NCBI GenBank assembly: GCA_963971425.1
Contig: OZ020515.1
Location: forward strand, 13,098,291 to 13,162,290
From: Bryoerythrophyllum caledonicum
Taxonomy: Eukaryota; Streptophyta; Bryopsida; Pottiales; Pottiaceae
Direction: 5' to 3'
DNA: 64,000 bases
The notes below the pieces were generated by a model. It had not been told where the DNA came from and searched no databases. It worked only from the letters and a program-made list of their open reading frames with translations. Both the position numbers and the translations under genes were made by a program. Shown in pieces: positions 1,049 through 49,690 of the stretch (the first letter of the stretch is position 1; every line of letters begins with the position of its first letter).

Positions 1049-1122
1049 GGAGATTGCTATTTTGCGTGCCTAGAGCGGTGAGCGGTGAGCGGTGAGCGGT
1101 GAGCCGTGAGCCTATAGCTGAA
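1049..1122 (+). repeat. MULE-1 left terminal inverted repeat
   Basis: It starts GGAGATTGCTATTTTGCGTG and continues into five GAGCGGT-type heptamers (1072-1108, the last ones degenerate) and a GAGCCTATAGC tail. The right TIR has the same plan with fewer heptamers, so unit number differs between ends. The heptamer array may be a transposase-binding array (inference). Confidence 0.85.
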
Positions 1123-1642
1123 AAAATTATTTTTATGTAAGGAATTTTTTAGGAAAATGTATGGGCAAGAATATAATTTCTAAATTTAGTGAAAAAAGTG
1201 GCTCCTATTGCCGTGAAAAGAGGCTGCTAAAATCTAGGAAACGACATAGAAGGACGTGAATCCACGAAGCGGTGGGAGTCATTGAAATTGGCGACGGATG
1301 ACCAATTCAAAGTGAACGTACAAATGATGGGAACGAGTGAAATGTAAATTCACATTATAGAACATTTATTCTTCTAGTACAGAATTTATGTCATCTTATG
1401 GTATGCCCTTGACATAGTTCTCGGACTTCGTCTTGTTGTATTCGGTTTAGTATATAATAAATTAAGAGGTACTATTTTTGTTCTCAAATACTTAATGCTT
1501 TGATTTGTTTAGATATGGTAAGGAAGCGGTGTACAAAAAATATCTGCCAATTTCAGATAAAAACCGGTGGCTTTTGGAGTCACACTGTTTTTAAATAACA
1601 TAAGCGAAATGTAATACATAAAAAAAATGCCATTGTGGATAC
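1123..1642. other. Non-coding MULE-1 left flank
   Basis: AT-rich sequence between the left TIR and the transposase stop codon. It must hold the 3' UTR of the minus-strand transposase. I see no ORF or repeat of note. Confidence 0.5.
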
Positions 1643-4600
1643 CTACATAGTGTATTGCTTAAGAAGCAAAACCTGAATGACTTGTTTGGTCTCATTCCAA
1701 CTAAAACTAGGAGCATGTATAAACAAATCAACATCGGGATCTAAACCGCAGACAATGTTGAGAATAAAGTAGAGGTGCTTACAATACGTCCACTGTCCTC
1801 GTTTGCCAAGCGACTTGTCCGACATGTCTTTGAAGGATGGGCAATCACAGCTTGGGAATTGACCAATTGAAACCAAATAGGTGGAAACCTTGGAAATACT
1901 CCTGGACTCCAAGCTCAGAATGCATCCTAGAGCTGGTCGAGGCACCATAAGGATCTTGCGAATTTTGCCAACCACCGACAGTGCAGAGGCGCAGCTGTTA
2001 TGATGTTTTGTAGTCGGTGCTTGTGGGTTTCGACGGATATTCTTTCCGTACCTCCTCGTGGGATGCTCTGATGGGTTTATGGGTGGTGGATATTCCTCCA
2101 AGTCCACTGGAGCGGAAACGTCAGAGAACAACTTCCTCGGGGATAACTCTATGCGCTCAGCGAGGCGGAATCCAGCGTTTTGAAGATCTGATATTTCCTT
2201 ACTAGATAGATTCGTGCCCAACTTGACGGGCCACACATCTGGGATGTCAGGTTTGGACAATACCCACTTCCTTCGAGAGCCTTTCGCACAACGCTCAATG
2301 TCGTCATTGCAAAAGAAGAACTGCATCTTCTCAATCCTGTTCTTTTTGTAGCTGTCCATCATACCCGTGTAAGTCGGGGCAGGTGTACTTTTCCCGTCTT
2401 GTACGATTTTTGCCACACACTTCTTCCTCGTGATGGCCTGCAGGGCAAAACACGCTTTCGCAGAGGTTTTAGGAAGTCTAGCAATGTGCCATTGTCCCTC
2501 ATCGCAATCAGATTCAAGTACTGCCTTAGGATTATGTATGCGGAAGGAAGATGGTGGACTCGTCGAAGGGAGGGCTCCTGGTGCATCAAGTTCTTCAGTC
2601 GGATACACGACGTCACTTTCGATTGTAAGGTCTTCAAGTTGTGGATTCTTCCGCCTAGTCTGGACACGAGGGCGTGAGATACTCATTTTGTCGGGTCGGT
2701 GAGAGTCGAATTCGCAACCAGGTGGTTGATCAGCCTTCCTTTTCACTGAAAAAAAAACTTCCTCACCTTCGAGATGAGGATCGCGGATGCAAAATTGGGA
2801 AGCGCCAGGCATGCTGTTAAAAGCTTCGTGAAGAACTTTCGAATTACCGGACCGATGCGCGGTTCTCTGGGCCGCACGAAGACGAAGTTCTTCTTTTCCG
2901 GGCCCGGTTCCAGCCTTCTCACCCTTGAGAAAACCATAATAGGCCACGACTTGCATGAAGGCGCGGATCATATCATCGACGGTTGCCACATACAAGTCAT
3001 TGCCTCTCTTGCCTGATTGCTGCAACCACTTATTGTGGACGGTCTCCGCTAGGTTGCATGAAGGCATCTCAGCCATTTCCGACTCCGATAAAGCCTAGGA
3101 AGCAAATAATAGAACTATTGTTAATGTAATTGCACCCCTAGCATCAACATGAACTAAAAGATATTGTAAAACATAGTGTAGGGAGCTTACATGGTCCATG
3201 AAGCCCCCCCATTGACGGTAGCGGAAATGCCAAAAGGCGAGCCATAAGTCTAGTCGTACAAGCCCATCATCCGTGGTTGCTCCAGATGATAACCACCATG
3301 ATCGAATTGCTAGGTACTTTGTCTGAGCCTCATCCATCGTTGTGGAGTTCTTATACTGTTTGCATAGCTGCCTGTGCTGGTCTTGAAGATCAGCCCTGAT
3401 GTCAGCCTTGGTGTGCTTTTCTAATGATTGGGTCCAGTGAAAGAGACAGGTCCTCTCTTTGTTGTCCATTCGGATGGAGGGGTCACCACTACCGTAAGTA
3501 ATTCGAACCGCATTCCAGTTTGCCTGTGCGCTGTCGGCCATGAAGCCTTTGAAATTCACAGTTCGCATGTCATGCTTAGCCGCCACTGCATTCAAATTGT
3601 TCCAGAATACCTGTTGTACAGCAGTATCCTCGGATTGCATGTCACAAACAGCAATAGTCATTACACGACAAAACGTAGAATCATACACATGAGATGCCAT
3701 TGTCGTCCATCCCTTGACGCGCTTGACGTGGTCGAACATCATCCATGAGTCTTCTAAATCACCTCCAGGCTGCATTCTACGCACTAAATCAACGCCACTA
3801 CCAGGTCCAATCTCTCCCATCTTGAAGATGAAGACCTTGTCAGCGTCTGTACCTTGACCTGGAAACCAGTTCTCTTGGACGAAGGCCCAATTGCTAGAGC
3901 CTCTAAGTTTAGTAATACTATCCATGACACCGAATCGGCGCAGGTAACGGAATGTCGTCACTTCATTGCGGAGACTAGGGGAATTTATCAGCTTGACCTT
4001 GTCTAGGACAGGAACCAATTCATCTAATCCGAAAGTTTTATGGGAGACACCGTCAGGGCAGAGGAGCAATTCTCCGAGGTACTCTTTACTTGCTTCTAAT
4101 ACGATGGAGGAGTTTGTCGCCGAGGGAGTCCGTTCAACTTGATCTCCTAGTAAGGCCCTAAATTTAGAGGTTGTGTCTCTGCAGAGCCCTGTCTTAACTG
4201 GATGACGGTGAGATCCCAAGTGAACACAAGCACGGGACATAGAATTTTGCCCAACTACGTAATACACCTTTGCAAAACAGCTATCTAATCAAGCAGGTGG
4301 AAGGTGATAGATTGCACAAAGAACAGTTGAATTAGACGGCGGCTCACATCCTGGAAAAAATGGAGAAGATGACGTACCCTCCCAATCTGTCTCATTAAAA
4401 GGGGAGGCTCGATTGGGACGTTGAAGATAGTTGCAGAGATGGTTAGTGCACCTAAGGTGACCTAAGCAGGAAGACATGCGAAATGTGAGCTGATGTTCGG
4501 ACTTGATGTGAGAAGTTACGGTACGAGTCCAAGCATGACCATCGTGTGCCTTGTCCATACCGTGAAGGTGGCCAGCCTTGGAAGAAGGAGGAAAGTTCCC

Positions 4601-5338
4601 GAGAGAAGGAAGTTCAAATACAATGTCACCGTCGAAAGTAGGTGGGAGGAATTCAACTTTTTCTACAGAAATGGAGTTAAAATCAAGTTTACTAAGGAGA
4701 GACTTTGATCCACGTCGAGTACCTAAATTCTGCAAACAGTCCACTATACTATTTGACGATGGGAAAACGAAAGATCGAGGGGGGTTAGATTTGTGAATGG
4801 TAGCAGAGGAAGGGAATGATGAACGAGGAGGCGGAACTAGTGGAGTTGAAAGATATGAAGAGTTCACAGGACTGAATGGGATGCACTCACTATCAGAGTC
4901 ATCACTCAAAACAAAGACGTTCTCATTACCAGGCTCTAATTTTACCTTCGAAAGCAGGGGTGTCATCCCAGTAGTAGTTGATGATAGGCGAGGCGTCAAA
5001 GAAGGTGATGTTGCTCCACTGCTGCTATCGTTCTTCCCATACACGAGGTACTTTCCCGCTGTAAGCATCCACAGCTCATCCTCTCCACTGACAGTACTAA
5101 ATTGTGCAACGGAATGAGTAATCTCACCCGTGATTGAATCAAATACTTCACGGTCGACATGGACAGTTCCCTTAGTGATTTTGAATCTCAGAGCAAGACG
5201 ACTTCCACTCATTGAAGCGAACCCACTATCGCTAACAAGAAAAGATAGCGGTACACATGATCCCTCTCCTCGAAGCAGGACAGTACCACTGAGCTCATCC
5301 CCTACAGCTGCCATATCTAGATAAGGAGTTGTTGACAC
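1643..5338 (-). pseudogene. MULE transposase, one in-frame stop, one intron
   Basis: All three coding blocks (5338-4292, 4288-3191, 3094-1643) are in one frame. Block 1 (about 349 aa) has a Ser/Pro-rich linker and a Cys/His cluster near its end (CLGHLRCTNHLC), a likely zinc finger for DNA binding. Block 2 holds the catalytic region: KRVKGWTTMASHVYDST, then FMADSAQANWN with a candidate second Asp, then CLFHWTQSLEKH, the C/H motif typical of MULE catalytic domains. Block 3 ends with a SWIM zinc finger (CDCPSF...YCKHLYFIL, about 1780-1850), which is common in MULE transposases. A 96-nt intron (3190-3095) joins blocks 2 and 3. The only break is TGA at 4289-4291, between the finger module and the catalytic part; the relic MULE-2 has a cysteine codon there. 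The family call is firm; activity is doubtful because of the stop. Confidence 0.85.
3095..3190 (-). other. Intron in MULE-1 transposase
   Basis: The minus-strand donor is CAT|GTAAGC at 3190 and the acceptor TTGCTTCCTAG| at 3095. The length (96 nt) is a multiple of three, so retention keeps frame but adds a terminal TAG. Splicing joins GGFMDH to ALSESEMAEM in phase 0. The relic MULE-2 has matching exon sequence on both sides. Confidence 0.75.
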
Positions 5339-5891
5339 GTAATATAATGTAATGACAATATTCAGAGTAAGGATTCTAGGGGAAATTGGAAGTAAGATTT
5401 ATACGCAGAGCATCAAGAACGGACCATTGACACCGTTATGGGATTCACAAAACCGTGTCAAATAATGCACTCTGCATTGGGCGATTAGCGGCCGTCATTC
5501 TTCAATAATGTAAGTCTTATTAAAGTGATGACAGGTTTCTACCACACAGTCCGTGCTCAAGGTCGACTATATTTTGATCGTAAAACAACCTAATCTCAAT
5601 ATGGCCAGCAAAAAGATTATTCCACTTTGGAGTGCCTAATCTGGGAGCTAAGACGTCAAATAATTCTAAAGATGTGATATATTCAACAAATAATCAAACC
5701 ATCGATGTTCAAGTACTGGTTAATGAGACATATTCTGTGAAGCGTATTTGGCTGGCAATTGAGGTAATCAGAATATATTTTAGTGGATAGCAAGTAATAT
5801 ATTTATCTAGCTAATAACACCGACCAATAACCATAAATAATTGGAGCCACTAGGAGTACTTGAAAGCTTGCGAAAAATAAAATCCCGAATC
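5339..5891. promoter_or_regulatory. Shared divergent promoter region of MULE-1
   Basis: This 0.55-kb gap separates the start of the minus-strand transposase (5338) from the first ATG of the plus-strand cargo gene (5892), so it must hold both promoters. It is AT-rich with TATA-like stretches (for example TATATTTTAGTGG near 5770 and GTAATATATTT near 5790). Sharing one short intergenic region suggests co-expression (inference). Confidence 0.5.
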
Positions 5892-8800
5892 ATGAAGAGA
5901 AGGAAGAGAAAAGCTTTGTACTATAGTGATGCAAAGATGTTGAAGAGGAGTAGGCAAATGAGAGAGAAGAAGTCGAAGCCAAGTGATGTTGATCTAGGAG
6001 ACACCGCAAGGGTCCTGAATTTTGAGGATGAATCACAGTGCACTCCAATCTTGTGTGGTCAGAGCAACCCCGAGCTTTCAATTATTGTGGAGCATCGCAT
6101 TGAAGAAATGTTGATTGGCGATGATGTGGAATCGAACCCCGTCGTAGGTTTTGCAACAGATTATGAACTCGGTGAGTACTCTTTGTTGCTCAATTGCGAT
6201 GTCAAATGATTGACATCATTTATATGGTATATGCAGTTCTTCGGAAATTCAGAATTTAGGTCACTTTGATATGTTGGTATATAGTCATCTCGATTGTACT
6301 ACAAATCTCCCCCTTTATCCAACATTTGACTTTATCGAACACAGCTACGCTCTGACTAGCGAAGGGTGAGACAATATTTCTGCCAAACTACATAGCATTT
6401 ACTGGTACGATACCAGTGACAAGTTAATGGCTAGGGTTAGAAAGGCAAAAGTGAAATGGGAGAAATTGTCTAGGCGTCTGGACAATAGGTAGAGGGACAG
6501 TAGGGAGAGGGACAGAAGGAAGATCGTGAGTTCGGGGAGAGTGTATAGGGAGGCAAGTGCCGACACCGTAGGGTCGCAGTGAGACGGGTGTTGCCTGGAG
6601 CGCCCGGCCGCGGCAGACGATCAGGCCGTGCCTGGCACGAAAGGTGGAGGGGTTCGGAAAGAATGCAGTAACTTTCACTGACAGGGCGAGGGATCGGTGA
6701 TAGTCGTTGGAGATATTGATTGGGAAGGCACAATCTGCCTTTCAACAGCGCCCTCCCTCGGCGCTGCACATTAAGAATCGAGTCAAGCTCCACCGCGACC
6801 CAGTACGCAGGGACAGTCCACGGGGTGCAGGATGCGGGGAGGAAGAGTCGGCAATTTAGGGTTTGGAGGTCGAGACAGTAATTAACCGGGGGAGTTGTTT
6901 TGAATTCCGCTGTCGGCTTGTGTTATAATCGATGGAATTATTTTGCAGGGAGGAGCAGCGGTGTGCGTGAGGACGGCTTCAGAAGCCAAGAACTAACAGA
7001 CGCGACTGCACTTGAAATGACGGGTAAGCCTTTAATAAATTTTTTTCCACATCTGTCGTTGGTGCTTATATTGCAAGCAACTGTCCCTTCCATGGTGACG
7101 GTACGAGGAAAGTCAGGGTTCGTGGTTAGGGTATAGAGAGAGTTAGGGTTTCGGAGTGGCTGGGATGATGATGCCGGGATGTGCTGTGACTATCGAAATT
7201 TTTGTCGATCGAATCTTTTCCATGCCCCGCCGCGACTGTACTCGTCACCCCCGTATTGGACTGCCAAGCTTCGGAGGGGGCCGAGGAGGAGACTGTGGTA
7301 AAGACATGCCGCATGGAGCGTCTCAAGATTGGGTGTTCAAAGAATATTGATAAGTTTAGGGTGGTTCCCGGAGAGGGTTCAGGGCTGCGAGTGATTCCAA
7401 GAGTGAACCTGTAGAGAGGAAGTCTATGGTTGAGCTGAATCTTCTCTCCGAATCGGAAGATAGAGTAGAAGTACTGTTTTCTGAATTTGATGGACCTCTA
7501 TGGCATTTTTCATTTCTATGAATCATCCATCTTGAGTATGCATCATATGAGCTTAGTCTAACCAATATGCATGCGCTCCAGCCGAAGCAAGCAACGAGGG
7601 CGATGTAAGTCGAGCATACGGAGACTCCGGACGACTTAAAATGGCCGGTAAGCTCCTCAATTCAATCCATCATAAAGATTTCTTGATAAGTATGCCAGAT
7701 TCATTGGAAAAAGAGGGATCACTGAGAGACACCACCGGAGGGGTGCCGGCAGCGGCACCTCCGAGAAGGTGCCGCTGCCGGCACCCCTCCGGTGGTGTCC
7801 CTCTCCTCGCGAAGAGAGGCACCACCGAGGGGGTGCCGACAGCGGCACCTCCCCGGAGGTGCTGCTGTCCATACAGGCAGCAGCACCTCCGAGGAGGTGC
7901 CGCTGCCGGCACCCCTCCTATGGTGTCCCTCTCCTCGCGAAGAGAGGCACCACCGAGGGGATGCCGACAGCGGCACCTCCCCGGAGGTGCCGCTGCCGGC
8001 ACCCCTCCGGTGGTGTCCCTCTCCTCGCGGAGAGAGGCACCACTGAGGGGGTGCCGACAGCGGCACCTCCCTGGACGTGCTGCTGTCCATAGGTTGGCTG
8101 TCTACTTCGTTATTCAGATTTTGATGCATTCTTACATATATTTTTTGTCAATTTACTTGTAGAGACAGCAATTATTGAGGGGACCGGCTCAGCTTGTCAC
8201 GAGGAGGAGATTGAAGGTACTGTTTGAGTTTGTGAAGTTCATAATTTCACCTCTCTTCTTACACTTTTCTTTAACATCTACGTTGTTTTTCAGAGATTTC
8301 TACAGATGAGTTCGTAGAGCTTGATCAGGAGCACCGTAGCACGTTGTTGAGGAGGGGACACCAATGTCTGCTGACGAGCTTGGAAGGGAGATGGATGAGC
8401 TCGTCATGAAGGAGTCCATGAACACGAACATGGTTTTGGAGAAGCTCCGCTCTATACCTAAAGCCAAATCGAAGTTGAATATTCCACTCTGCAGGATGAT
8501 TTCCTTACGGGTTGTCCGTCCCTATTTGAAGAATGATGTAATGGGACTGGGCGCTCATTTTGTCAGCACTGGGTATATGGATGGCCACGGCGTGTTCTAC
8601 GTGGCAGTGGAGAACAACGACGGTAAGATAGTGCTAGTATCTGAGGCAATATCAAGTTCGTGGAGTACTCTATGGACCCGCGTGAATGAGCAATTCGAGA
8701 TCGAGTTGCAGAGTGATGAGGATTTGAAGCAGTTTTCAGGAGTGATGTTCCACGTCTGGGATGGAAACCACAGACTTCAAGCTTGGCTGCCTATAATTAA

Positions 8801-11800
8801 TAGAGATCATTCGAATGATATGAGCTGGCATTATTCTGTAGAGTCTATCATTCTCAACGTGGACAATCAAGTGGCTCCGTTGCTGACTGCCCTTCATCAA
8901 GTAAACTGGTGAGATATTTACTCTCTAGCGAGACTCTCAATTCTGACTATATTCTGGATTTCACAATCCGTGTCTTTACCTACTATGTGTTTCCACATCT
9001 TTATGTACACACAACAATTACAAACCGACTGAACAATCCATTTTTATATTCTTAAGTACGAAATGAAGTACAATTCTGTTATACATATTCCATAGTCCGA
9101 ATCATACAATGCTTGGTTTTGATGCTCTGTTTACGCCTGACTCTTTGCAAAATGTACTTTGAATGATCAATCATTCACCCTCTCCTTCGGTTCTCTCCTA
9201 AAATATTTGTATTTGATCCGCACTTATACTCAGTCAGTCATACTTAACGTGTTCTGCACACAGGAGAAACCAAAAATCCCATGTGACAACAAATCTGGTC
9301 CACAAGTTGTACTGCATTCAGGGGATTGCGGGGCAGCCACTTCAGTACTTCGACTCGCTCGTGGGTAGGGACGAAATTGTGGCCGCAGAGGCAAAGCAAA
9401 AGTCCAAAGATCGAACATGGTACACCTTGACATTCAAGTCACTGATCTCAATTCTGTACCAGGTACTCCGACTCTTCGCTTCACTGAGCATGAGGTATTG
9501 TCTATGTTTTAGTGCTCTCAATCTGTCAATTCAATCATTTTTCTTGTCGAGGTAATCTTCTTTTCAATAAATATTATATTGATCTTATTCATATCAATGT
9601 AGTCAATAATAAATGAAGTGAATTTGACTATGCTAAGCCAAAATGTTTTCCCGAATACCTCTGTGATTCTTGCTGAATGTAGTGATACTTTGCAAAGTTT
9701 TTTGAGAGTCGATTATTATCTCTTCCTTGTTTGTTTATTCAGAACTTTCATAACTTTATTTAATCAAACTCTGTTAAGAGTATATCGAATTTCACCTACT
9801 CGTAGAAACTATTAGTCATCTTATGCCAACTATGATTTTTCGTAGTCCCTTTGACTCAATTCATTTTTAATCCATTCCTGAATCTTGCTGATTTTTGAGC
9901 TTTGTGTTTTAATTGAATTGCTTTTCTCTTGATTATGTCTCGTCAACTTATGTCCCGTAATTCTAAGACTTTACGTGGTGGAATTATTGAGATAAGGTGA
10001 TAATTGATTTATGTTTCTGCAGCAAGAGCTCGGTGATGCAGTAGCTCATTCCAACAGGTAATTTAAGGAGAAGTTTCCTGATGAGTCATCCTGGACTGCG
10101 GCTAAGATTCACGACTTTGTTACGGAACGAGTTGAGAAAGTGAAGGTGCACCTTAGCTCGGAGCTCAAGAAGCAATTGCCGATTGCAGACCCGAAGCACA
10201 CTCCTGAGTTCTTATCACAGGTTCGTATTCACTATGAAAATCGTGAAGATGATCCTGAGATGTCTCAAGAAAAATTGTATTACCTCGCCACCTCTGCTAT
10301 GGTTCCAAGCATGAAGGTGAAATGGTTGGAGCGATGGAACAAGCCTCCTTCATTGCGTGAGCAAGTTCGATTTCCAAGGTCGAAGTTTCCTGACCATGAT
10401 TTCCCAGAATGGCTTCACAAGGCAACATGGTGGTCTCAGGTACGTAGTTCCCTGTCACCTAATGGAATACAATTTCGTGCTACTTTTTCATATGATATTC
10501 TGGTTTCTCTTTTGGTGCTACAATACATAGTGCTTGTATTCATTAATGTTGTTTTCTTCGTGTTTGTAGCTTTCAGGAGAGACCGAAACTCTATTTCACG
10601 GGATTTTATCCGACATGGAGGTTACTATTGAGTACATCCCTGAGAATGGAATGCCTATTCCCACGATATCTGAATATATTGAACAGATGCGGGTTCAGCT
10701 CTGGGATATTGCCTTTCAGAATGAATTCAAGGGGAAAGGAGTTCACAAGAATAACCCGCCGGAGAAGCAAGTTGGACTCAAGCTTGCTATCAACCGCACT
10801 CTCTACAGGTACTTCATGTACATCCTTTTCCCAAGGAAGGCAATTACCAGGACTCCACCATCCTTCTCTAATTACTTGGAGAAGACTAGTGATATGTTCA
10901 TGTTTACTGTCGATACGACGAAGACGTGGAGCCGGGAGCATTGGGAGCATTGTGGGTGGTATTTGGATTGTCCGGTGAAGAGGCCACCTTCATTTGATGT
11001 CGAACTTCGGAATAGTGTCCAGCCAGATCTTCTGGGTACAGAATTGTCAGTTCCGTCAGTCTCTACAGAGGTTGGCGTAAAGAAGACTCGTGTCTCGAAG
11101 CGGAAGGCTACTGCTGATGCCGAGGCCGTTGCGAAAGCAAAGGCGGAGTCTGAGGCCGCCGCCAGGATCAAAGCAGAGTCGGATGCTACAGCATCGGCAG
11201 TTGCGAAGGCCCTTGCCGCCGCGAATGCGCAACTAGCCGTTCAACAAGCTCAGCTGATCCCTTCGATTTCAGCTGCCGATGTTGATGACACTGAGATGTT
11301 GGATTCGGAGTCTTTGGTAGCGCCGTTGAGGTTTACCAGGAAATCAAAGCGACCTCTCCCCGAAGCTTCGAGCGCCTCGAGTCCACTTTCCCTGTGCTCT
11401 GATATGCTCATCCAGAAGGTTAATGCTGGTAGGACCTCTCCACCTCTTCCAGCAACAGTCTTCGTGGACAACTCATCGGTGTCCATGATCATGGAGTCCT
11501 TTCCAGCGGAGCACGCGACTCTACTTCAAATCAATTCGTTTGTCCTCCATGTACTTTAAACTTTTCACCATTACTTTGATTTAGATAGTTTGCACTTAAT
11601 TGCTATTATTTTCTAATTCTCCATGTTCATATAATGTATCATTCAATCACATTTTCCACTGTTGCATTTTAGTCACACTGTATTTATTAACCATCACCTT
11701 TGTTTCGAAACAGTTTTATTGACTTTAGCTTTTCCAGGCACGAAAAGAGGCCTCCACTGCAGGACGGTCCACTCATTGTCCTCATAGTGGATTCAACTTG

Positions 11801-13046
11801 ATCTTGGGTGACATCCCTGACGGGATGTCGGTCCCATCCATCTCCAAGAATGCGTTGGACATTCCTTCATGGAACGAATATTCAATTGCGGAAGTGGAAT
11901 GCTTATTTGAGTTCTCAGATTACTTCCTTCATGAGTCCGGAGGCATACTAATCTTCTTGCCCGAGGTCCCCTCTATCCGGTCTGATGTATTGTCGTATGC
12001 AGGTGGATACGGTTTCAAAGTTTTTAGAGAATGGTGGGCAATTAACGACCTCCCATTTACTTCGCACATCAATGCTTCGCTAAAGGTGTACTTTCTTGTC
12101 TTTCACCTTACAATCAATTTGAGTACTTCTTTGAATTTGAACTAAGCTCTCATTCTAACAGCGTGGTGTGGAATTTGACTTGCTCTTCAATTACAGTCTC
12201 GAAGGTTTCGTGTCTTGTTCTTTGTTCGTGAGAACGTGGATGGTGCTAAGTTTACATTCAACAAGAACGAATTCCTCTCTGAGGTGGGAATGGGTGTGGA
12301 AGAATCCGATGTTCTTTTCAATTTCACCTCTGCCCAGTCTCAATCCATGCGAGGAGACATTCCATGGAGGGGGCCACGTGAGAAGGATGCTTACTTCCTC
12401 CAAATGTTGATCGAGGCGCTATCACAGCCTGGCGCGGTTGTTCTGGATGCGTTTGCCTCCACTGGTAAGTCTACTTTCTGTCTTGTGGTAACTTGTCACG
12501 TAATATTATTCTAATATTGTGAATTTTCTCTGTAGGAAATTCCGTGCGTGCATGCCAGATGTGCGGTCGACATATCGTTGCTTTGGAAAGCGACTCAGCC
12601 ATCTTCAATGAGAAGTTGAAGGCCCTTTCATCGGCATTACCGGGTCCGTCTAACCGAACTGACTCGCCTAGAGTGGCAACTCTCCCAGATGAAGACGTCC
12701 TTATTCGAAAAATCGTCAAACGTAATAGACTGAGTACGTAAGTTCAAGTTTTATGTGTTTGCAACTCTCTGCCATTCATTGTGAAGAACTCCATGATTTC
12801 AATACCTGATGATCTTGTGCTCTCTGTAGTTTGATTGCAAAGGCGGTTTCTCCACCCAAGGATTTTCTGCTGCCACCTTGGGCCGGACATGTAGCTGACA
12901 TCGTGGCGTCTATATCGTCTCCTCGCCATCATACCCGCAGTCAACAATATGATCCCCGTGTGGTTTGTTATCTGGATGTAGAAGCTGATGTCGAATTACA
13001 TGTCCTGCCCTCCTCTTCGGCCTCTAGTTCTTTTCCATCTACTTGA
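5892..13046 (+). CDS. MULE-1 cargo gene: ParB-like domain + DNA methyltransferase (spliced)
   Basis: I reconstruct a multi-exon gene from GT-AG sites with matching phase. Exons: 5892-6171, 6949-7023, one or two unplaced within about 7180-7600, then 8163-8216, 8294-8908, 9264-9462, 10023-10439, 10570-11550, 11738-12085, 12197-12464, 12536-12737, and 12830-13046 ending in TGA. The N-terminus is very basic (MKRRKRKALYY, RSRQMREKK), like a nuclear-localisation signal. A ParB/sulfiredoxin-like domain follows, then a middle region with an Ala-rich charged stretch (11100-11240), then a methyltransferase domain. Two likely lesions are visible: a one-base frame change near 8336-8345, and an in-frame TAA at 10059-10061. 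The domain pairing resembles ParB-methylase proteins of phages and bacteria. A role in modifying the transposon's own DNA, or in chromatin escape, is inference. The alternative is two adjacent genes, but the phase-consistent introns favour one. Confidence 0.7.
6172..6948 (+). other. Long first intron of the cargo gene
   Basis: Donor CTCG|GTGAGT (6172) and acceptor TTTTGCAG| (6948) fit phase 1 on both sides. The interval holds no convincing coding sequence; antisense ORFs around 6424-6793 are short and have no family features. Confidence 0.55.
7024..8162 (+). other. Cargo-gene segment with unplaced small exons
   Basis: Exon 2 ends in phase 1 (ACGG|GTAAGC at 7023) and the exon at 8163 needs a phase-1 partner. 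Coding-like stretches between them include 7202-7411 (ASEGAEEETVVKTCRMERL) and 7377-7518 (SMVELNLLSESEDRVEVLF). A donor-like GAGGGCGAT|GTAAGT lies near 7600. I cannot fix the exon ends. The rest is intron containing the palindrome array. Confidence 0.35.
7730..8095. repeat. GC-rich palindrome array inside the cargo gene
   Basis: The first hairpin has perfect 31-bp arms (7730-7760 and 7767-7797) around a 6-base spacer. The same motif set (GGTGCCG-N4-CGGCACC, TCCCTCTCCTCGCG, GAGAGGCACCAC) repeats about three times to 8095 with small changes. Transcribed, it would fold into strong stem-loops. All ORFs on either strand here are by-products of the repeat. A related but decayed palindrome family lies in MULE-2 (47990-49690). 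Confidence 0.85.
8294..8908 (+). CDS. Cargo-gene exon encoding the ParB-like domain
   Basis: Acceptor GTTTTTCAG| at 8293 and donor AACTG|GTGAGA at 8909 bound the exon; splicing to 9264 completes a Trp codon. The clean frame runs from the ATG at 8364. Residues about 37-70 (IPLCRMISLRVVRPYL, then a Gly-rich turn) look like the first strands of a ParB domain. The diagnostic motif FHVWDGNHRLQAW follows near 8755, matching the DGxHRxxA signature of ParB/Srx proteins. After it comes SVESIILNVDN...LLTALHQVN, like the ParB pattern of a strand followed by a helix ending in Asn. Known ParB-fold domains bind DNA or nucleotides (CTP in true ParB). Which activity applies here is unknown. Codons upstream of 8345 lie in another frame, suggesting a one-base indel. 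Confidence 0.7.
9264..11550 (+). CDS. Cargo-gene middle exons (9264-9462, 10023-10439, 10570-11550)
   Basis: Three exons with consistent phase-0 junctions link the ParB and methyltransferase parts. I recognise no domain. The first reads NWRNQKSH...LQYFDSLVGRDEIVAAEAK; the second is charged and helical; the third has LSGETETLFHGILSDME, then a motif-poor region, then an Ala/Lys/Glu-rich helix near 11110-11240 that may be a flexible or coiled linker. An in-frame TAA at 10059-10061 interrupts the second exon; it is one C-to-T step from a Gln codon. The 3' end at 11550 (CTCCAT|GTACTT) is the least certain junction. Confidence 0.55.
11738..13046 (+). CDS. Cargo-gene exons encoding a DNA methyltransferase domain
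   Basis: Exons 11738-12085, 12197-12464, 12536-12737 and 12830-13046 join in phase. The first carries LILGDIPDG at the place of catalytic motif IV, then GGILIFLPEV and GYGFKVFREWWAIND, the pattern seen after motif IV in N4-cytosine/N6-adenine enzymes. The second and third together give WRGPREKDAYFLQMLIEAL, then VVLDAFASTGNSVRAC and CGRHIVALESD. That is the classic order of a pre-motif-I helix, the SAM-binding motif I, and an acidic residue after gR. Catalytic motif before SAM motif marks the beta class. The catalytic tetrapeptide is D-I-P-D rather than (D/N/S)PP(Y/W), so activity or target base may differ. The last exon is Ser/Pro-rich and unconserved-looking. Confidence 0.75.
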
Positions 13047-14049
13047 GGAAACATTTTGTTTAGACTTTTATGTTTTCCTTGTCTCACGCGTTACAAAAGC
13101 ACCCCCCTTTGTTAAATCCAGTTTTTTCTTACACTTCCACAACTTGTTTACATTTTCTGAGTATGAAATGTTTGTTTTCTTTCACTGCCCACCTACAACC
13201 TGATTCCACGCTTTCCTTCTTGGCTGCGTATTTAATGAGATAGCCAAAATATCTAAACGTGATTCTCTTTTTCCTTCTTATATTTCGTCATTCCTATATC
13301 TTGAACTAGCGTTTCCTTAAGTTTCTATACTCACTCTTCTTCGACGGATTAAAAAATCCCCTCATTATCGTTTATTTGATTTTGTCACTATTTAGTGGCC
13401 TAAACAATCCATGTTGTCGAAAAAGATTATTTCTACTATGTACAGGCAATTTTACTTGTATATATAATGTCTCGGCAATAGTGAGTACGTGGCTTATTGT
13501 TTGACCTATAATTCCATAGCATGAAGTTATTCCTATTTTGACTTCCAGCATGAGCTCTCCAACCTCTCAATTCCAGATAATCTACTATGTAAACTAGGTA
13601 TCTTTAATCATTCTTATGCGTAGCCTAAAGTACTATGCCTCTTCCTAATCTTCGGCAAAATTTAGATATTCTTTTAATTACAATTCTCTTATATCATGCA
13701 ATGTAATAAGGGTCCCGAATTTTCAGGGGACGTTGGTATAGTAAATAAATGAACTCATTACTTGGTTTAATATAAAATTGTAGCCGCAAATTTGGGTTTA
13801 TAATGCATCGTCACTAATTGAAGGGTGTTCTAGCAATCCACGGCCATAGGGTTCTTACTTCCCTCCACAAACATATTCAATGTTTCCTTTTCAAAAAGTA
13901 CCATCATATATGGAATGGAATACCCAATAATTGTTTGAATTATATAGAATCCACGGCTATAGGCCCTAACCCGTCAACTTTAACTCTATTATACTTACTT
14001 TTGCACTTGCTTTATTGTCAACTATATGACTTCGTTTTTCCATAAAAAC
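13047..14049. other. Non-coding 3' end of MULE-1
   Basis: AT-rich sequence between the cargo stop codon and the right TIR. It must contain the cargo 3' UTR. I see no gene; short ORFs lack any family feature. Confidence 0.55.
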
Positions 14050-14117
14050 CCCAACTTTACCGCTCTAGGCTCACCGCTCACCGCTCACCGCTCTGGGCAC
14101 GCAAAATAGCTTCGTCC
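14050..14117 (-). repeat. MULE-1 right terminal inverted repeat
   Basis: Read on the minus strand it begins GGACGAAGCTATTTTGCGTG, then three GAGCGGT units and GAGCCTAGAGCGG. The first 20 bases match the left TIR except for about four positions near the tip. Confidence 0.85.
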
Positions 14118-14127
14118 CCTCACAATT
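14118..14127. repeat. Target-site duplication of MULE-1, right copy
   Basis: CCTCACAATT, identical to 1039-1048. It is followed by TACCGG, the continuation of repeat A as seen in copy B. Confidence 0.88.
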
Positions 14128-17299: not shown

Positions 17300-17304
17300 A
17301 AAGG
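17300..17304. repeat. Copia target-site duplication, left
   Basis: AAAGG directly before the 5' LTR, repeated at 22454-22458 directly after the 3' LTR. Five bases is the normal size for LTR elements. Confidence 0.85.
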
Positions 17305-17539
17305 TGTTGAGTATAGAGTGCTTAACTAGTATAGAAAGGTAGGACCAGCCCTACCTTAGAAGATAAGAAGTAGAAAAGGGTAGCTTGGTGTCATTGTCCC
17401 ATAAGGATTACAATCAAGGGCTGATGTATTCCATTGATAAGAAGAGCATGGGAAGTGGGAGAATTCACCTCTCTCATTGCAAGCTTTACCACCAACTTGT
17501 TCATTCTTCATTGTCTTCCTTTCATTTCATTCTTCAATA
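17305..17539 (+). repeat. Copia 5' LTR
   Basis: It begins TGTTGAGTATAG and ends CTTCAATA. The ends are near-inverted (TGTTG and CAATA); the last dinucleotide is TA rather than the usual CA, in both LTRs. The boundary is set by the AAAGG duplication. Confidence 0.9.
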
Positions 17540-21100: not shown

Positions 21101-22243
21101 CTCAAGCAATCTCCACGTGCTTGGTATGAGAACTTCCATGCATTCTTCACAAGGGAGGGCTTCACAAGGAGCATGGCTGACCATTCATTGTACATCAAGC
21201 AAACAACGGACTACTTCATGGCGGTGGTCATCTACGTGGACGACGTGATCTTATTGGTAAGTGGCATGTTGATGATGAGGAAGTTGAAGGGAAGCCTTGA
21301 AGAGGAGTATGACATGAGTGATCTAGGTGAGTTGCATTTCTTCTTGGGAGTTCACATTGAGAGGGATAGGGCAGCCCTCACCATCACCATGCACCAACGG
21401 AGCTACATCGAGGGTGTGCTCCAACGCTTTGGCATGGAGGATTGCAAGCCCATTGGCACACCTTTGGATGCAAAGGCGCCATTGGTGAAGCTTGGCGATG
21501 AAGAGTTTCAAGAGCATGAGGAAGGTATGTTGGATATCCCCTACAAGGAGAGTGTGGGTTGTCTAATGTATGCAATGGTAGCCACAAGGGCTGACCTTGC
21601 ATTTGCGGTAAGCGTGGTGTCTCAATTCATGTCCAAGCCCGGTTTTATGCATTGGGCAGCGGTGAAGAGGATCATGAGGTACTTGAAGGGCACCATGGAG
21701 ATGAAATTGACTCTTGGAGGCAAAGACATCAACCTTCAAGGATATTGCGATGCGGATTGGGGAGGCGATGCAAGCACAAGGAAGTCCACGACGGGCTACG
21801 TCTTCTTCCTTGGAGTGGGCGCCATATCGTGGAATAGCAAGCGCCAACCAACGGTGGCTCTATCCACCACGGAAGCGGAGTATATGGCGGCAAGCCAATC
21901 CGCCAAGGAGGCCATTTGGCTAAGGCAATTGATGGCTGATGTAGGGTGTGTGCAATGGGAGGCAACCACCATCATGTGCGACAACCAAGGTTGCATTGCA
22001 CTCGCGAAGAACCCCAAGCACCACTCACGAACGAAGCACATAGATGTGCAACACCATTTCATTCGAGAGAAGATTGAAGATGAGGTAATTGAGTTGCGGT
22101 ATTGCCCCACGGAGCACATGGTGGCTGATGTGCTCACGAAGGCACTTGGAAGAGAGCGACATGTGATGTTGAGCAAGGCGATGCGCTTAGAGTCCAAGGA
22201 CACCTCGCTAAGTGGGAGTGTTGAGTATAGAGTGCTTAACTAG
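18125..22243 (+). CDS. Ty1/copia Gag-Pol polyprotein
   Basis: One intact ORF encodes the full retrotransposition machinery. Numbered from the in-frame ATG at 18101 (1380 aa): UBN2-like Gag (about 15-225), CCHC zinc knuckle CYKCGKPGHIARNC (about 233), aspartic protease WIVDSGATQH (about 281), the integrase HHCC region WHRRMGHL (about 422) and integrase core with HSDVCGP, RSDNGGEYTG and PQQNGVAERANRT (about 485-590). Then reverse transcriptase with QMDVKTAFLNGELEEDVY (about 957) and active site YVDDVILL (about 1045), and RNase H with GYCDADWGGD (about 1213) and HSRTKHIDVQHHFIREKI. Domain order PR-INT-RT-RH defines copia. I prefer the second ATG, 18125 (MASSEGEGLRLV), because Gag homology starts there. 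The stop lies 25 nt inside the 3' LTR. Confidence 0.95.
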   Translation: MASSEGEGLRLVDKFNGDNFSLWKFKMEMILSAKDLWDIVDQTELPPPPTADEKDKKDYERRCKRAFAVIATNLVDKEMAHIKACKGPAEAWTTLCNIHETKSLSNILFLRRKFFTVKMEEGGDMLDHINKVKSLADQLTCLDVPVKDEDVVMTLLESLPPSYEHLITALETRPVKELTVEFITARLMHEVSKRKEREPQGEDAAMISRQDKKGSSSTRQEARTCYKCGKPGHIARNCWSNKEVANNARDEVTHNDFVFVANGGATNTSINNWIVDSGATQHMTPHKHAFDTYEPISGRNVFMGDNGVVEVVGKGSIVVESNVEGQRRRIVVHDVLHVPKLHANLLSVSKLVSRGLVVQFNTKGCAVRSCEGNLIATSSMEANLYRLELKVVSGADVGCLAHSSANGPLMELWHRRMGHLNAKGAKALQGMANGMDLGKAPSNVVPFACEGCIEGKLARQPFPTDGAERATKVLELVHSDVCGPMKTTSFGGARYFLTFIDDFSRKVWVYVLKCKSEVLPRFKEWKSLVEKQSEHKVKVLRSDNGGEYTGKAFDEFLRKHGIVRNTSAPYTPQQNGVAERANRTIVEMARSMLYAQELGREFWAEAVCTAVYTRNRCPSRALQGVTPEEAWSGKRPTISHMRVFGCVAYAKVPDERRTKLDAKAIKCLFLGYCEGTKAYRLICMATKKIIKSPDVEFFEDKESLKEHPSGSVDEGPALEVDGSFKSDDDEEFEEEAKPLVVQPALCGPSESFVEGGEGTIDEEVEGQPKHGGQSAPILRARTRRIAREAPPQPPPRKDDNDTTEASRYSRRVRKPLGEWWKNHILPPRDVERANVAAIAEPHTMSEAIHSQDASKWELAMQEEYHSLMANGTWELAPLPSNRKRVGCKWVFRTKRDANGDIVRYKARLVAKGFSQVEGVDFNETFAPVAKFSTIRCMLALGAAMDLEIHQMDVKTAFLNGELEEDVYMDQPPGFVQEGQAHLVCKLKKSLYGLKQSPRAWYENFHAFFTREGFTRSMADHSLYIKQTTDYFMAVVIYVDDVILLVSGMLMMRKLKGSLEEEYDMSDLGELHFFLGVHIERDRAALTITMHQRSYIEGVLQRFGMEDCKPIGTPLDAKAPLVKLGDEEFQEHEEGMLDIPYKESVGCLMYAMVATRADLAFAVSVVSQFMSKPGFMHWAAVKRIMRYLKGTMEMKLTLGGKDINLQGYCDADWGGDASTRKSTTGYVFFLGVGAISWNSKRQPTVALSTTEAEYMAASQSAKEAIWLRQLMADVGCVQWEATTIMCDNQGCIALAKNPKHHSRTKHIDVQHHFIREKIEDEVIELRYCPTEHMVADVLTKALGRERHVMLSKAMRLESKDTSLSGSVEYRVLN
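22206..22218 (+). promoter_or_regulatory. Copia polypurine tract
   Basis: Purine-rich run ending AAGTGGGAG directly before the 3' LTR, within the polyprotein ORF. It is the expected plus-strand primer site. Confidence 0.7.
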
Positions 22244-22453
22244 TATAGAAAGGTAGGACCAGCCCTACCTTAGAAGATAAGAAGTAGAAAAGGGTAGCTT
22301 GGTGTCATTGTCCCATAAGGATTACAATCAAGGGCTGATGTATTCCATTGATAAGAAGAGCATGGGAAGTGGGAGAATTCACCTCTCTCATTGCAAGCTT
22401 TACCACCAATTTGTTCATTCTTCATTGTCTTCCTTTCATTTCATTCTTCAATA
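22219..22453 (+). repeat. Copia 3' LTR
   Basis: Same 235 bp as 17305-17539 with one difference seen (T at 22410). The polyprotein stop codon (22241-22243) falls inside it. Confidence 0.92.
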
Positions 22454-44354: not shown

Positions 44355-44440
44355 AGGATTGCTATTTTGCGTGCGTAGAGTGGTGAGCGATGAGCGGTGA
44401 GCATTTGTTTGTGAGCGTAGAGCCCAAAAAGTAAGTTATT
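44355..44440 (+). repeat. MULE-2 left terminal inverted repeat
   Basis: GAGGATTGCTATTTTGCGTG followed by GTAGAGTGGTGAGCGATGAG and further GAGCG words copies the start of MULE-1 (1049-1122) with a few changes, in the same orientation. No right-hand partner is visible, probably because the gypsy element lies in between or the end lies past 64000. Confidence 0.8.
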
Positions 44441-45459
44441 TTTTGGAAATTGTGCGATAAAGTAAAACTTCTGAAATATTTTTAGTTGGAAAATATTATT
44501 ATTAGTAAAAATGATGGACCTATGACCGTGGAGTAGGATGCATGAATCTTGCGTAGAAAAGGTTGATTTTGGTAGTACATGTACCTTATGGTGGAGAAAA
44601 GTTGCATTTTTCAAATAGAAAGGCCTATCACCGTGGTGGTTAGTGTTTTCAATGATGACATGATATAATCTTTTGAGGTTGTAATTATATAGGAAATGGA
44701 AAGTTAGAGAAGGTTAGTTAGAGAGAGTTTGAGAGAGGGACATGGGTGTTGGTTTAGGGCTAGAAAAAGAGGCAGTTGCAATAAGATTTATAAAGTACAG
44801 GAGAGGAGAGAGGTTAGGGAGTGTCACAAGAGGGACATAGAAAGCTAGGGAGAGTTAGAGTGGCTTATGGAAAAGGACAATTGGAGACAAAATAAGTAAG
44901 GGTTTGGGGAGAGGGTCAATTGGAAGGAGAGTTAGGAAGAGGAACAACAAAATCAAGGGAGAGATAAAGAGCGTGATAGGGGGATGTTGAATTAGGGGGT
45001 CCAGAGAGAGTTAGAAAGAATGAGGAAAAATCAAGAGGACAATTAGTAGGAGGAAAAGTTAGGGAAAGAGACAAATGGAGGAAGATGCAATTGGGACAAG
45101 GAGAGTAAGAGAGAGTAAGAGAGAGCAATCGAGAGAGCTGGGCACAATTGGACGGAGATTGAGGCGGCACAAAGAGAGTAGAAGAGATAAAAGAAATAAG
45201 GGAGAGTTTGGAAGATGGATAGTTGAATTGGCAGAGTTAATATTGATCGTTCTCTTATAATTTCAAAGCAAGTGAGAATCTCTATTCCTACTTGCCATCC
45301 CTCCCCTCAATCTCCGAGAAAATAGAACAAGTGGTCGGCAAGAACATGTTTATGTACAAACTACGTGGGTGGCCATTTTATTCTTACTGCCTTTTCATTA
45401 TAGTAGAAAGGAGCAAGACATTGATAGAATACAATTCAAGATTCCTCTGCATTATAGTA
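44441..45459. other. MULE-2 left interior without a gene
   Basis: Contains a long purine-rich tract on the plus strand (44690-45200, GAGAGAGTTAG-like words). Corresponds in position to 1123-1642 of MULE-1. No coding sequence seen. Confidence 0.5.
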
Positions 45460-47960: not shown

Positions 47961-47989
47961 TCATAAATATAGAAAATGAACTTTCAAAG

Positions 47990-49690
47990 GGGATGCCAAC
48001 AACAACATCCCTCTAGAGGATGCCTCCAATGTTTAAAAAGGGAACCTACAAAAGAGATGCCGACATCAACACCACTGAGGAGGCTCCTTTAGGGACGGTC
48101 TACAAAGGTACCCCGTTTTTGATGTCATAATGTGACAAAGTTGGAAAAAACACTACTTATTTCTTTTAGGGTATACAAATGAGGAAAATTATTGAATTTG
48201 AAGGAATGATTGATATTACTAATGTATCCTAGGGTCCAAGGGAAATTTGCCATTTGTAATCAATATTTGGTTTTATTCACTAAAATCACTAAGAAATGGG
48301 GAATTCCATAAAAAAATTGAAATATTTTTTTTTCACTTTTGTTGATTGAAAGGTTAAATTAACAAGGTTGTACAAGTAGGCCTATTTTTTTTTAATTAGT
48401 TCGTTGTTGAAATAACCATCAACTCAAAATTAGGAATTTTTAGTGTCACAATGTCTCTCCTTTCTAGTTTAGCATTCCTAAACGATTCTTTGTAGAAGGG
48501 ATTATGTAACAAAAAAATGAGTCCTACTTGTAAAATCAAGTTAACTTCTACCACCAACCAACCAAAATGTTAAAAAATTTTTTTCGAATTTTCATTGAAC
48601 TCTCCAATTTTGCGCAAAAATGAGTAACCTTAGCACAAAGTGACCCTTCCTATTTTTAAAAACAAAACCTCTAAAAGAGATGCCGACATCGGCACCTCTC
48701 TAGAAAGATCCTCCAATGTTTAAATATGAAACTTCTAAAGGAGCTACCAACATCAACATACTTCTAGAGGGTCCTTTCAATGTTTAAAAGGGAACGTCCA
48801 AAAGGGCGTCGACACTGGCACCTTTTTAGAGGCCCCCTCCAATGTTTATTAAGGGAACCTCCAAAAGAGATGCCGACATCGGCACCCCTCTAAAGGGCTC
48901 CTTGAATGTATAAAAAGGGATCTCCAAAACAGGTTCCAACATTGGCATTCCCTGTAACTTAATTCCACGACCTAGGAAAACATAAGGGAATTCCAAAACC
49001 GTATTACATGTCACCATCCGCCACTCTAAAGATGAGTTATCAACGGATGAAGTTTCAAATCTCATAACTTCATCCGCATATAAATCATCCCTGCAACATC
49101 CGATGATAAAGTGTCATACAATTTCGGAATTCTCTTGAAATTGCCAAGAGCATGGTTGCATACTTCAGGGGGTGCCGATGTCGGCTCTCTTTTTAATGGG
49201 TCCCTTAATAAACATGAGAGAGGCCCTATAAAAGGCAGCCGATGTCGGCTCCCCTTTTAATGGGTCCCTAAATAAACATTAGAGGGGCCCTCTAAAGGAG
49301 TGCCAATGTTTGCGCCCCTTTTGAAAGTTCTTTTAGTAAACATTAGAGGGGCCCCCTAAAGCGGTGCGAATGTCGACCCCTCTTTTAGAGATTTCCGTTA
49401 GAAATATTAGAGGGGCCCTATAAAGTGTGGCCAATACCGGCCCCCTTTTTAAAGGTTCCTTTAGTAAACATTAGACGGGCCCTATAAAGGACGGCCAATA
49501 TCGGCACCTCTTAAATTGGAGATTCCCGTTAGAAACATTAGAGGGACTCAATAAAGGACGGCCGATATCGGCGCCCCTATTGGAGATTCCCGTTAGAAAC
49601 ATTAGAGGGACCCTATAAAGGGCGGCCAATATCCGCGCCTCTTTTGGAGGTTCCCTTAATTTACATTAGAGGGGCTCTAAAAAATTTAAA
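47990..49690. repeat. Decayed palindromic repeat array of MULE-2
   Basis: About fifteen imperfect units of 80-95 bp with a core like GCCGACATCGGCACC or GGTGCCGATGTCGGC, bounded by TTTAAAAGGGAACCTCC (47990-48960) or AACATTAGAGGGGCCC (49170-49690). The second half runs in the opposite sense to the first. The core resembles GGTGCCG-N4-CGGCACC in the MULE-1 array. A unique AT-rich spacer (48120-48650) interrupts it. Confidence 0.7.

Follow-up and report, generated by a model that had tools for sequence, protein, structure and literature searches.

A transposon family of Bryoerythrophyllum caledonicum with a resident gene that combines a ParB-like motif and a methyltransferase fold

The locus described here raises the question whether a DNA transposon of Bryoerythrophyllum caledonicum has, as a resident part, a gene with a ParB-like motif and a methyltransferase domain, and what such a gene could do for the element. 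In the window, i.e., the whole stretch of 64,000 nucleotides that was analyzed, the following parts of the element were located:

1049-14117, no strand: whole DNA transposon copy of 13,069 bp with terminal inverted repeats (TIRs) and an exact 10-bp target-site duplication (TSD); damaged copy
1039-1048, no strand: left TSD, CCTCACAATT
14118-14127, no strand: right TSD, CCTCACAATT
1049-1097, plus strand: left TIR, GGAGATTGCTATTTTGCGTGCC..., with GGTGAGC heptads
14069-14117, minus strand: right TIR, GGACGAAGCTATTTTGCGTGCC..., with heptads
1643-5314, minus strand: transposase gene, divergent to the cargo gene, with an intron around 3095 and a nonsense codon at 4289-4291

The span 5892 to 13046, given as the element in the original prediction, is the gene, whereas the transposon enclosing it extends from 1049 to 14117. 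The predicted TIRs and 10-bp TSD were confirmed: positions 1056-1097 and 14069-14110 are inverted and identical at 41 of 42 positions, and CCTCACAATT is exact on both flanks, where an 11-bp reading matches too. Heptads occur in both TIRs, and the array in the left one (1073-1111) has a period of 7 and 5.6 copies. Four related copies of 12.1-12.3 kb, to which most coding blocks of the window element are 77-79% identical, have ends that match those of the window element, TIRs of 62 bp with 89-90% identity and four different exact 10-bp TSDs (4/4 read). Therefore, the ends and the TSD in the window are not due to chance, and chance TIRs could be ruled out by the matching ends of these copies. The gene order is fixed, with the transposase gene pointing away from the ParB-like exon and the methyltransferase part downstream of the latter. 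The window holds one damaged copy of the element; the family is large and was recently active, and its members are DNA transposons of the cut-and-paste type.

The cargo gene and the repeats associated with it were annotated as follows:

5892-6171, plus strand: putative first exon of the cargo gene, basic N-terminus MKRRKRKALYYSDAKMLKRSRQMREKKSK
7743-8066, no strand: six 16-bp palindromes GTGCCG-N4-CGGCAC, upstream of the ParB-like exon
8364-8908, plus strand: ParB-like exon (DGNHRLQAW domain), exon 1 of the model; 60 database proteins at E<=5.6e-18 and 232 genome matches
9264-9462, plus strand: exon 2 of the model
10023-10439, plus strand: exon 3, with an in-frame TAA at 10059-10061
10570-11550, plus strand: exon 4, middle region, low-complexity linker
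11738-12085, plus strand: exon 5, methyltransferase part, motif IV position DIPDG
12197-12464, plus strand: exon 6, methyltransferase part, ending in motif I VVLDAFAST
12536-12737, plus strand: exon 7, GNSVRACQMCGRHIVALESD, end of the methyltransferase domain
12830-13046, plus strand: exon 8, C-terminal tail and stop; dN/dS 0.45, less constrained

The eight exons between 8364 and 13046 on the plus strand are read through GT-AG introns. All seven introns were found at identical positions in the young copy examined, the exons of which are 77-86% identical to those of the window, confirming a spliced gene between the TIRs; the motifs named for it, DGNHRLQAW, VVLDAFASTGNS and LGDIPDG, are all present. 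The window copy itself is broken, by the TAA in the cargo gene and by the nonsense codon in the transposase gene. Separate transcripts for the ParB-like and methylase exons are rejected as improbable, judging from the seven conserved introns and a frame that is open through all exons in four copies. Upstream, 190 bp of the putative first exon are conserved at 77% in the young copy, with a dN/dS of 0.185 over 89 codons; the placement of cargo exons 5' of the ParB-like exon, between 6171 and 8364, is putative and not settled. The predicted product, >1050 residues long, would comprise a putative basic N-terminus, a DGNHR domain resembling ParB/DndB, a middle region and, last, a methyltransferase fold. 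With the whole spliced protein as query no database match was obtained at E<=1, probably because the database proteins are single exons.

Whether this gene is a resident of the element could be judged from its distribution over the genome. The transposase core gave 128 genome matches, 14 of which are open and 100% identical to the query (rounded); the left end is 99-100% identical at 14 of 40 listed places, and these are the places of the same 14 transposases. The methyltransferase exon is listed in all 14 of these near-identical copies and the ParB-like exon in 13, the remaining copy (C9:25616153) having a shorter spacing; in the copy at C1:8974235 the ParB-like exon is interrupted by a stop. 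All four copies that were read have a 10-bp TSD and an unbroken cargo model of 1056 codons. Among the 150 listed ParB-like matches, a divergent transposase was found within 25 kb upstream for 62 (wrong arrangements: 0, 2, and 0) and a methyltransferase downstream for 52 (wrong arrangements: 0, 0, and 0). Since the ParB-like and methyltransferase listings are the best 150 places each, a missing partner does not mean an absence, and 149 of the 150 methyltransferase places entered the arrangement count (C1:12922371 was left out). Of the 36 transposases nearest to the query, 34 have a cargo exon, ParB-like or methyltransferase, at the expected place. In the one pair used for all dN/dS values, the window copy versus one young copy, dN/dS was 0.121 over 1055 codons of the cargo gene (0.15 for the methyltransferase part) and 0.144 over 1222 codons of the transposase. 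The cargo gene is thus shown to reside in the element as one of its own components, and purifying selection acts on it as strongly as on the transposase; it belongs to the transposon as had been proposed.

These results bear on the view that a host or bacterial gene was caught once, in the manner of Pack-MULEs, and has no function for the element. Mutator-like elements (MULEs) are described as acquiring host gene fragments (PMC6446971), but here the gene is found again in many copies, in a fixed order and kept by selection. One-time capture is refuted by the copy counts, the fixed arrangement and the dN/dS values, and is given hardly any probability. The case that the gene is absent from all other copies was also considered and does not hold, given this recurrence and selection.

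The designation of the element as Mutator-like could be upheld for its TSD length and TIRs, but not for its transposase. The exact 10-bp TSD (window and 4/4 copies) falls within the 8-11 bp given for MULEs in PMC6446971. Pfam searches gave no match at E<=1 for the transposase ORFs of the window, PF10551 (the MULE domain) included, and no match for 1193 joined transposase residues of the young copy, where the homologous frames are 757 and 491 aa long. A PF10551 profile search of the genome listed 150 places, none of which, compared by eye, is the transposase of this element; in this the element differs from MULEs. Read by eye, the transposase contains DSTY, MADS, CLFHW, AETVHNKW and CSCPSF...CKH; these may represent a DDE order that includes CxxH, together with a finger of the form CxC...CxH, and would then resemble the DDE triad and SWIM finger of MULEs. 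An hhalign comparison with a single MULE piece from this genome, using very small profiles, was not significant. Only its TSD length and its TIRs make the element Mutator-like.

The methyltransferase fold is supported by several searches. PF01555 matched the motif I half of the domain at E=2.1e-5 and 25 bits, just below the cut-off of 26.7, and a PHROG (2.2e-9) and the DpnA structure (2.6e-4) matched over the same half, while a phage tblastn match (2e-6) covered 90% of the domain. In an alignment with four phage methyltransferases, VVLDAFASTGNS falls on motif I and LGDIPDG on motif IV, and the motif order is IV-I, as in N6/N4 DNA methyltransferases. A viral origin was rejected; viral contigs gave one locus, with a methyltransferase match of 63 residues at 25% identity. 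LGDIPDG does occupy the motif IV position, as predicted, but is not a canonical motif IV. Instead of the catalytic DPPY ([DNS]PP[YFW]), D-x-x-[D/E] was found in 38 of 40 rows and an aromatic residue at position 4 in none, the rows being the 30 best matches to the window query (two of which, L023 and L024, are the window) and 10 distant copies chosen from the lower part of the list. In six representatives that were aligned, the F-x-G-x-G of motif I reads F-A-S-x-G (T-A-A-x-G in one), S or A replacing the first glycine of GxG. As the motif IV aromatic is missing in 40/40 rows, catalytic activity of the methyltransferase appears doubtful.

The suggestion that the element marks its own DNA must be weighed against these substitutions. 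An active methylase could place N6-adenine or N4-cytosine methylation on the element and thereby block host 5mC silencing or guide transposition. The whole-domain alignment to DNA methyltransferases, the matches at the SAM motif and the purifying selection on the domain are in line with such a role, and for the algal counterparts binding and epigenetic modification are suggested by the authors of PMC12477816. The absence of the aromatic from all 40 motif IV rows counts against it, and together with the altered motif I glycine indicates that a marking role may be lost; self-marking is possible but doubtful.

For the ParB-like domain, the motif could be confirmed but not the fold. In an alignment of 61 sequences, D, G, N, H, R, A, and W of DGNHRLQAW are at least 90% conserved, so the motif read as a ParB/Srx signature is present and conserved. 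PF02195 (ParB_N) gave no match in the genome at E<=10, a Pfam search of the window exon gave none either, and hhalign against three ParB structures, with very small profiles, was not significant, DGNHR falling on AGERR. Five of the 61 members matched DndB (PF14072) weakly (best E 0.0011), with unrelated families at similar E, such as DUF5531 (4 members, best 0.0046); one PF14072 match that was inspected covers the DGxHR region (residues 80-137 of member P0024, E 0.16). Phage and plasmid searches with the exon gave nothing significant, and the genome contigs collection no match. Searches with the 61-sequence alignment gave weak unrelated matches only in PHROGs and NCBIfam and nothing significant in PDB. 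"ParB" is therefore an interpretation, suggested by the motif and the weak DndB match.

Possible target sites were found within the element. Six 16-bp palindromes occur in the window, all in the array listed above, compared with none in 100 shuffles; by our reading of the putative 5' exons the array is intronic. Genome-wide, 1901 palindromes were counted, compared with 16 for the reversed control. The palindrome lies upstream of the ParB-like exon at 20/20 loci (best matches), which amount to about nine independent lineages since one locus (L002) is the window itself and L009-L020 form a single family of near-identical members; the methyltransferase loci in this comparison end short of the upstream stretch. 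By eye comparison, 20 of the 50 distinct palindrome sites listed (all on C1, up to 10.23 Mb) lie within listed elements and 30 outside. A listed element near C1:4.19 Mb has seven sites downstream of the ParB-like exon, and among the sites listed none belongs to the listed elements at C1:146091, C1:1193838, and C1:1550353 or to the ParB-like match at C1:6566447. The palindrome is a new find and a candidate binding site. The heptad arrays in both TIRs and the fixed pairing with the transposase would also suit a cargo protein that binds the heptads and helps the transposase by assembling or bridging the ends, with no epigenetic role; however, the palindromes are internal and not at the ends, and a methyltransferase fold would not be needed, making such an accessory unlikely.

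We consider it an evenly balanced proposition that the product of the resident gene is a self-recognition and anti-silencing factor resembling VANC of Arabidopsis VANDAL elements. Cutting would be the task of the transposase, and the cargo protein would mark or occupy self DNA, recognizing it via the ParB-like domain at the non-coding palindromes and/or the TIR heptads. The methyltransferase domain would be a local modifier or a catalytically weakened DNA-binding or assembly module, and copies would stay expressed or transposition-competent, as with VANC. A more specific, parS-like version is tentative and carries a rather low probability: the DGNHR/ParB-type protein would load on the palindromes and the methyltransferase-fold domain, its motif IV rebuilt to D-x-x-[D/E], would shield the element from silencing, either by reading DNA with SAM bound or as a methylase whose chemistry has changed. 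Such a VANC-like device would have arisen independently, out of prokaryotic parts.

If the cargo protein protects the element, a great many natural experiments on transposons beating silencing with prokaryotic-type parts would be at hand, and the palindromes and heptads are candidate target sites that can be tested at once. A selected methyltransferase-like domain without the usual catalytic motif also warns against reading such genes as active 6mA/4mC writers.

Sola elements have a TSD of 4 bp. The element described here has 10-bp TSDs and a transposase of no placed family, and differs in this from the Sola element Sola1-1_Ec32 of the brown alga Ectocarpus (Dinatale et al., 2025, PMC12477816). 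According to that report, Sola1-1_Ec32 carries an accessory gene of 1104 aa with ParB and N4/N6 methyltransferase domains, relatives of which are cited from green and red algal transposons; "new selfish module" was therefore too strong a term. By this published description the two are alike in protein size (1104 aa versus 1056 or more here), in the combination of ParB-like and N4/N6 methyltransferase domains, ParB here being a motif-level reading, and in the position of the accessory gene opposite the transposase in a large DNA transposon. DIRS retrotransposons with a Dam-like methylase and DNMT-bearing retrotransposons are likewise mobile elements encoding a DNA methyltransferase; they are retrotransposons with other methyltransferase types, and a ParB-like domain is not described in the accessible part of PMC5890265. 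VANDAL elements, which are Arabidopsis MULEs, share the resident non-transposase gene, and the targets of VANC are tandem repeats in non-coding parts, introns included (PMC5735166); the repeats found here are candidate targets. Loss of methylation in its own family, in a sequence-specific manner, is characteristic of a VANC-type factor. VANC differs in having DUF1985 and other domains and no ParB or methyltransferase, and its anti-silencing is experimental whereas here it is inferred. Compared with the Sola1-1_Ec32 report, the present analysis has measured copy number, the strength of selection and the absence of the motif IV aromatic, and the results suggest that the ParB and methyltransferase passenger is not confined to a brown-algal Sola element.

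The transposon carrying the ParB-like and methyltransferase gene had been predicted at 5892-13046, but these coordinates are those of the gene, and the surrounding transposon extends from 1049 to 14117. The predicted terminal inverted repeats (TIRs) and 10-bp target site duplication (TSD) could be confirmed: the inverted ends agree at 41 of 42 positions, and the 10-bp sequence CCTCACAATT is duplicated exactly, immediately beyond both element ends.

Layout of the window copy (window positions)
1049-14117: whole transposon, enclosing 5892-13046
1056-1097 and 14069-14110: inverted ends
5398-4289, 4288-3095 and 3094-1643, minus strand: transposase ORFs, left of the cargo gene
from 5892, plus strand: conserved basic exon, putative first cargo exon, its connection to 8364 only provisional
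8364-13046, plus strand: cargo gene, eight exons with GT-AG introns, 1058 codons before the final stop

The predicted splicing of the cargo gene was borne out. All eight exons join via GT-AG introns, and when the window copy was compared with one young copy (from a set of relatives elsewhere in the genome that are near-identical to each other), the seven introns were found at identical places with GT-AG borders. Within the 5' stretch the alignment was limited to the first exon and GC-rich repeats. Between these two copies, substitutions at codon positions 1, 2 and 3 numbered 135, 105 and 406, respectively, and dN/dS was 0.121 for the whole cargo gene, 0.15 for the methyltransferase part, about 0.41 for the C-terminal tail and 0.144 for the transposase. 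In the ParB-like exon synonymous sites were near saturation (pN 0.10, pS 0.72). Cargo gene and transposase are maintained under similar constraint. One of the 1058 cargo codons is TAA in the window copy. In its transposase, the stop at 4289-4291 is a nonsense codon of this copy, and the stop at 3095 is intronic by comparison with a young copy, which has frames of 757 and 491 residues there.

The genome (437 Mb, 894 contigs) was searched with three queries. The transposase core gave 128 matches, all listed (2576 first-look candidates), the ParB-like exon 232, of which the best 150 are listed (2364 first-look candidates), and the methyltransferase, searched exon by exon, 251 (best 150 listed). 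At 14 of the 128 transposase places the query was matched at 100% (rounded) with an open frame, and the left end was 99-100% identical at the same 14 places among the matches listed. Cargo exons were present at all 14, the methyltransferase exon at 14 and the ParB-like exon at 13 among the matches listed; other copies thus carry the same gene, and do not lack it in every case. At C9:25616153 no ParB-like exon was among the matches listed and the spacing was shorter, and at C1:8974235 this exon was interrupted by a stop. Four of the 14 young copies were read (12,130 to 12,278 bp). Each has its own exact 10-bp TSD and an unbroken cargo model of 1056 codons, and three are 99.3-99.9% identical to the fourth over long blocks. 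The young copies have transposed recently. Among the matches listed, read by eye, none lay on contigs C5 and C13.

For 62 of the 150 ParB-like matches listed, the 25 kb upstream contained an opposite-strand transposase (wrong arrangements: 0, 2 and 0), 52 had a methyltransferase downstream on the same strand (0, 0 and 0), and 38 had all three together. Of the transposases, at least 34 of the 36 most similar to the query, and at least 75 of all 128, had a cargo partner; these are minimum values, since partners were drawn from the best-150 lists. Among the lower-ranked matches listed, the transposase was ~80% identical, the ParB-like exon ~60% and the methyltransferase ~50%, and because identity drops further in the cargo, its sequence seems to change more rapidly than that of the transposase, yet the cargo is retained.

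The methyltransferase assignment held for the fold and not for the canonical motif IV. Over the motif I half, the METHYLTRANSFERASE domain matches PF01555 (E 2.1e-5, 25 bits, just under the cut-off of 26.7), a PHROG DNA methyltransferase (2.2e-9) and DpnA structures (2.6e-4). A phage match spans 90% of the domain (25.6% identity, 2e-6). In four phage enzymes DIPDG aligns with DPPY, DLPF and SPPY, and DAFASTG with D-x-F-x-G-x-G. Motif IV was read in 40 rows, namely the 30 best query matches (two being the window) and 10 lower-ranked ones. Its position 4, Y/F in the phage enzymes, is acidic in 39 rows and aromatic in none of the 40; 38 rows read D-x-x-[D/E], mostly DIPD, with DLKD, DIPE, DVPE and DFPD in distant rows, and one reads NIPN. 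DIPD also occurs in two database relatives. The aromatic residue of motif IV is important in N6/N4 DNA methyltransferases. The methyltransferase fold is maintained by selection, and ordinary N6/N4 chemistry is doubtful from these residues. Separately, C9:14278932 and seven other places in the genome have 153-residue frames that exceed the PF01555 cut-off over motif I and outscore this element; these may belong to a related cargo whose methyltransferase is more canonical.

Of the predicted ParB signature, the DGNHRLQAW motif is present, with D, G, N, H, R, A and W each at least 90% conserved in 61 sequences, and profile support is missing: no Pfam family matched the ParB-like exon of the window, the ParB_N profile had no match in the genome, and in hhalign against three ParB structures DGNHR fell on AGERR without significance. 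DndB matched 5 of the 61 members (best 0.0011), with DUF5531 and others scoring almost as well; in one of the five members the DndB match spans the DGNHR stretch. The scans made of viral and prokaryotic DNA with this exon gave no confirmed relative. By its motif and the order of its own elements the exon is putatively ParB/DndB-like.

The window contains six copies of a 16-bp palindrome, GTGCCG-N4-CGGCAC, all of them upstream of the ParB-like exon (7743-8066); 100 shuffles gave none. Each young copy has 3-4, two in a transposase intron and 1-2 upstream of the ParB-like exon, and none in its flanks. At 20 of 20 loci, the best matches of the query with the window among them and representing about nine independent lineages, 1 to 14 palindromes lie upstream of this exon; around the methyltransferase exons there were none at 40 loci, which stop short of the upstream stretch. 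A genome-wide count gave 1901 sites, and the reversed control gave 16. Listed elements contain 20 of the 50 sites listed, and the other 30 are in clusters outside them; four elements or hits listed from the same contig stretch have no palindrome. The palindrome is therefore a typical feature of the closer subfamilies, though not demonstrably of every one, and other repeats may contain it too. Dense clusters outside listed elements, at C1:1137779-1139207, 2489349-2496299 and others, are either unlisted elements or another repeat. The TIRs contain GGTGAGC heptads, which together with the palindromes are candidate binding sites.

The element is likely, although not proven, to be Mutator-like, as predicted. 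TSD length and TIRs are consistent with Mutator, and by eye the transposase has a DDE-like order with CxxH, and also a CxC...CxH finger. It nevertheless fits no Pfam model, and PF10551, which misses it, matches at least 150 places elsewhere in this genome. A survey of Mutator-like elements (MULEs) gives TSDs of 8-11 bp in the text available and reports SET, ovarian tumour gene, PMD and FAR1 among non-transposase ORFs; its main text, as available, does not contain the words methyltransferase, moss or Sphagnum (PMC6446971).

Elsewhere in the window, the left end of a related decayed element lies at 44361-47890 (TIR start with 3/42 mismatches), with a broken transposase at 45451-47890 (32-63% identical by stretch) and no cargo exon or right end within the window. 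A diverged tandem-repeat array in both orientations follows at 47935-49683. Two 236-bp direct repeats, 99.6% identical and ~4.9 kb apart (17304-17539 and 22218-22453), could be LTRs flanking a young retrotransposon. The ORF at 56781-59189 has reverse transcriptase, RNase H and integrase zinc-binding domains, and the ORFs around it, between 53529 and 59927, seem to be other parts of the same retroelement.

Overall, the predicted observation was confirmed and extended, and its interpretation was partly supported. The most likely function of the cargo protein is sequence-specific recognition of its own element, with the effect of countering silencing or promoting assembly; active DNA methylation is a possible but less favoured role. 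For palindromes as binding sites, parS is the comparison case. The targets of VANC, the anti-silencing protein of Arabidopsis VANDAL elements, offer another for palindromes and heptads (PMC5735166, accessible part). The accessible text on eukaryotic 4mC/6mA (PMC8885841, PMC12695648) describes no such element. A literature search, mostly without subscription papers, found no case closer than Sola1-1_Ec32 of Ectocarpus, where, in the available text, a ParB + N4/N6 methyltransferase accessory gene lies opposite the transposase and relatives are cited for transposons of green and red algae (PMC12477816). The novelty is therefore a variation within a known type: new here are an element with a 10-bp TSD, an unplaced transposase, the many copies, the changed motif IV and the element-linked palindrome.
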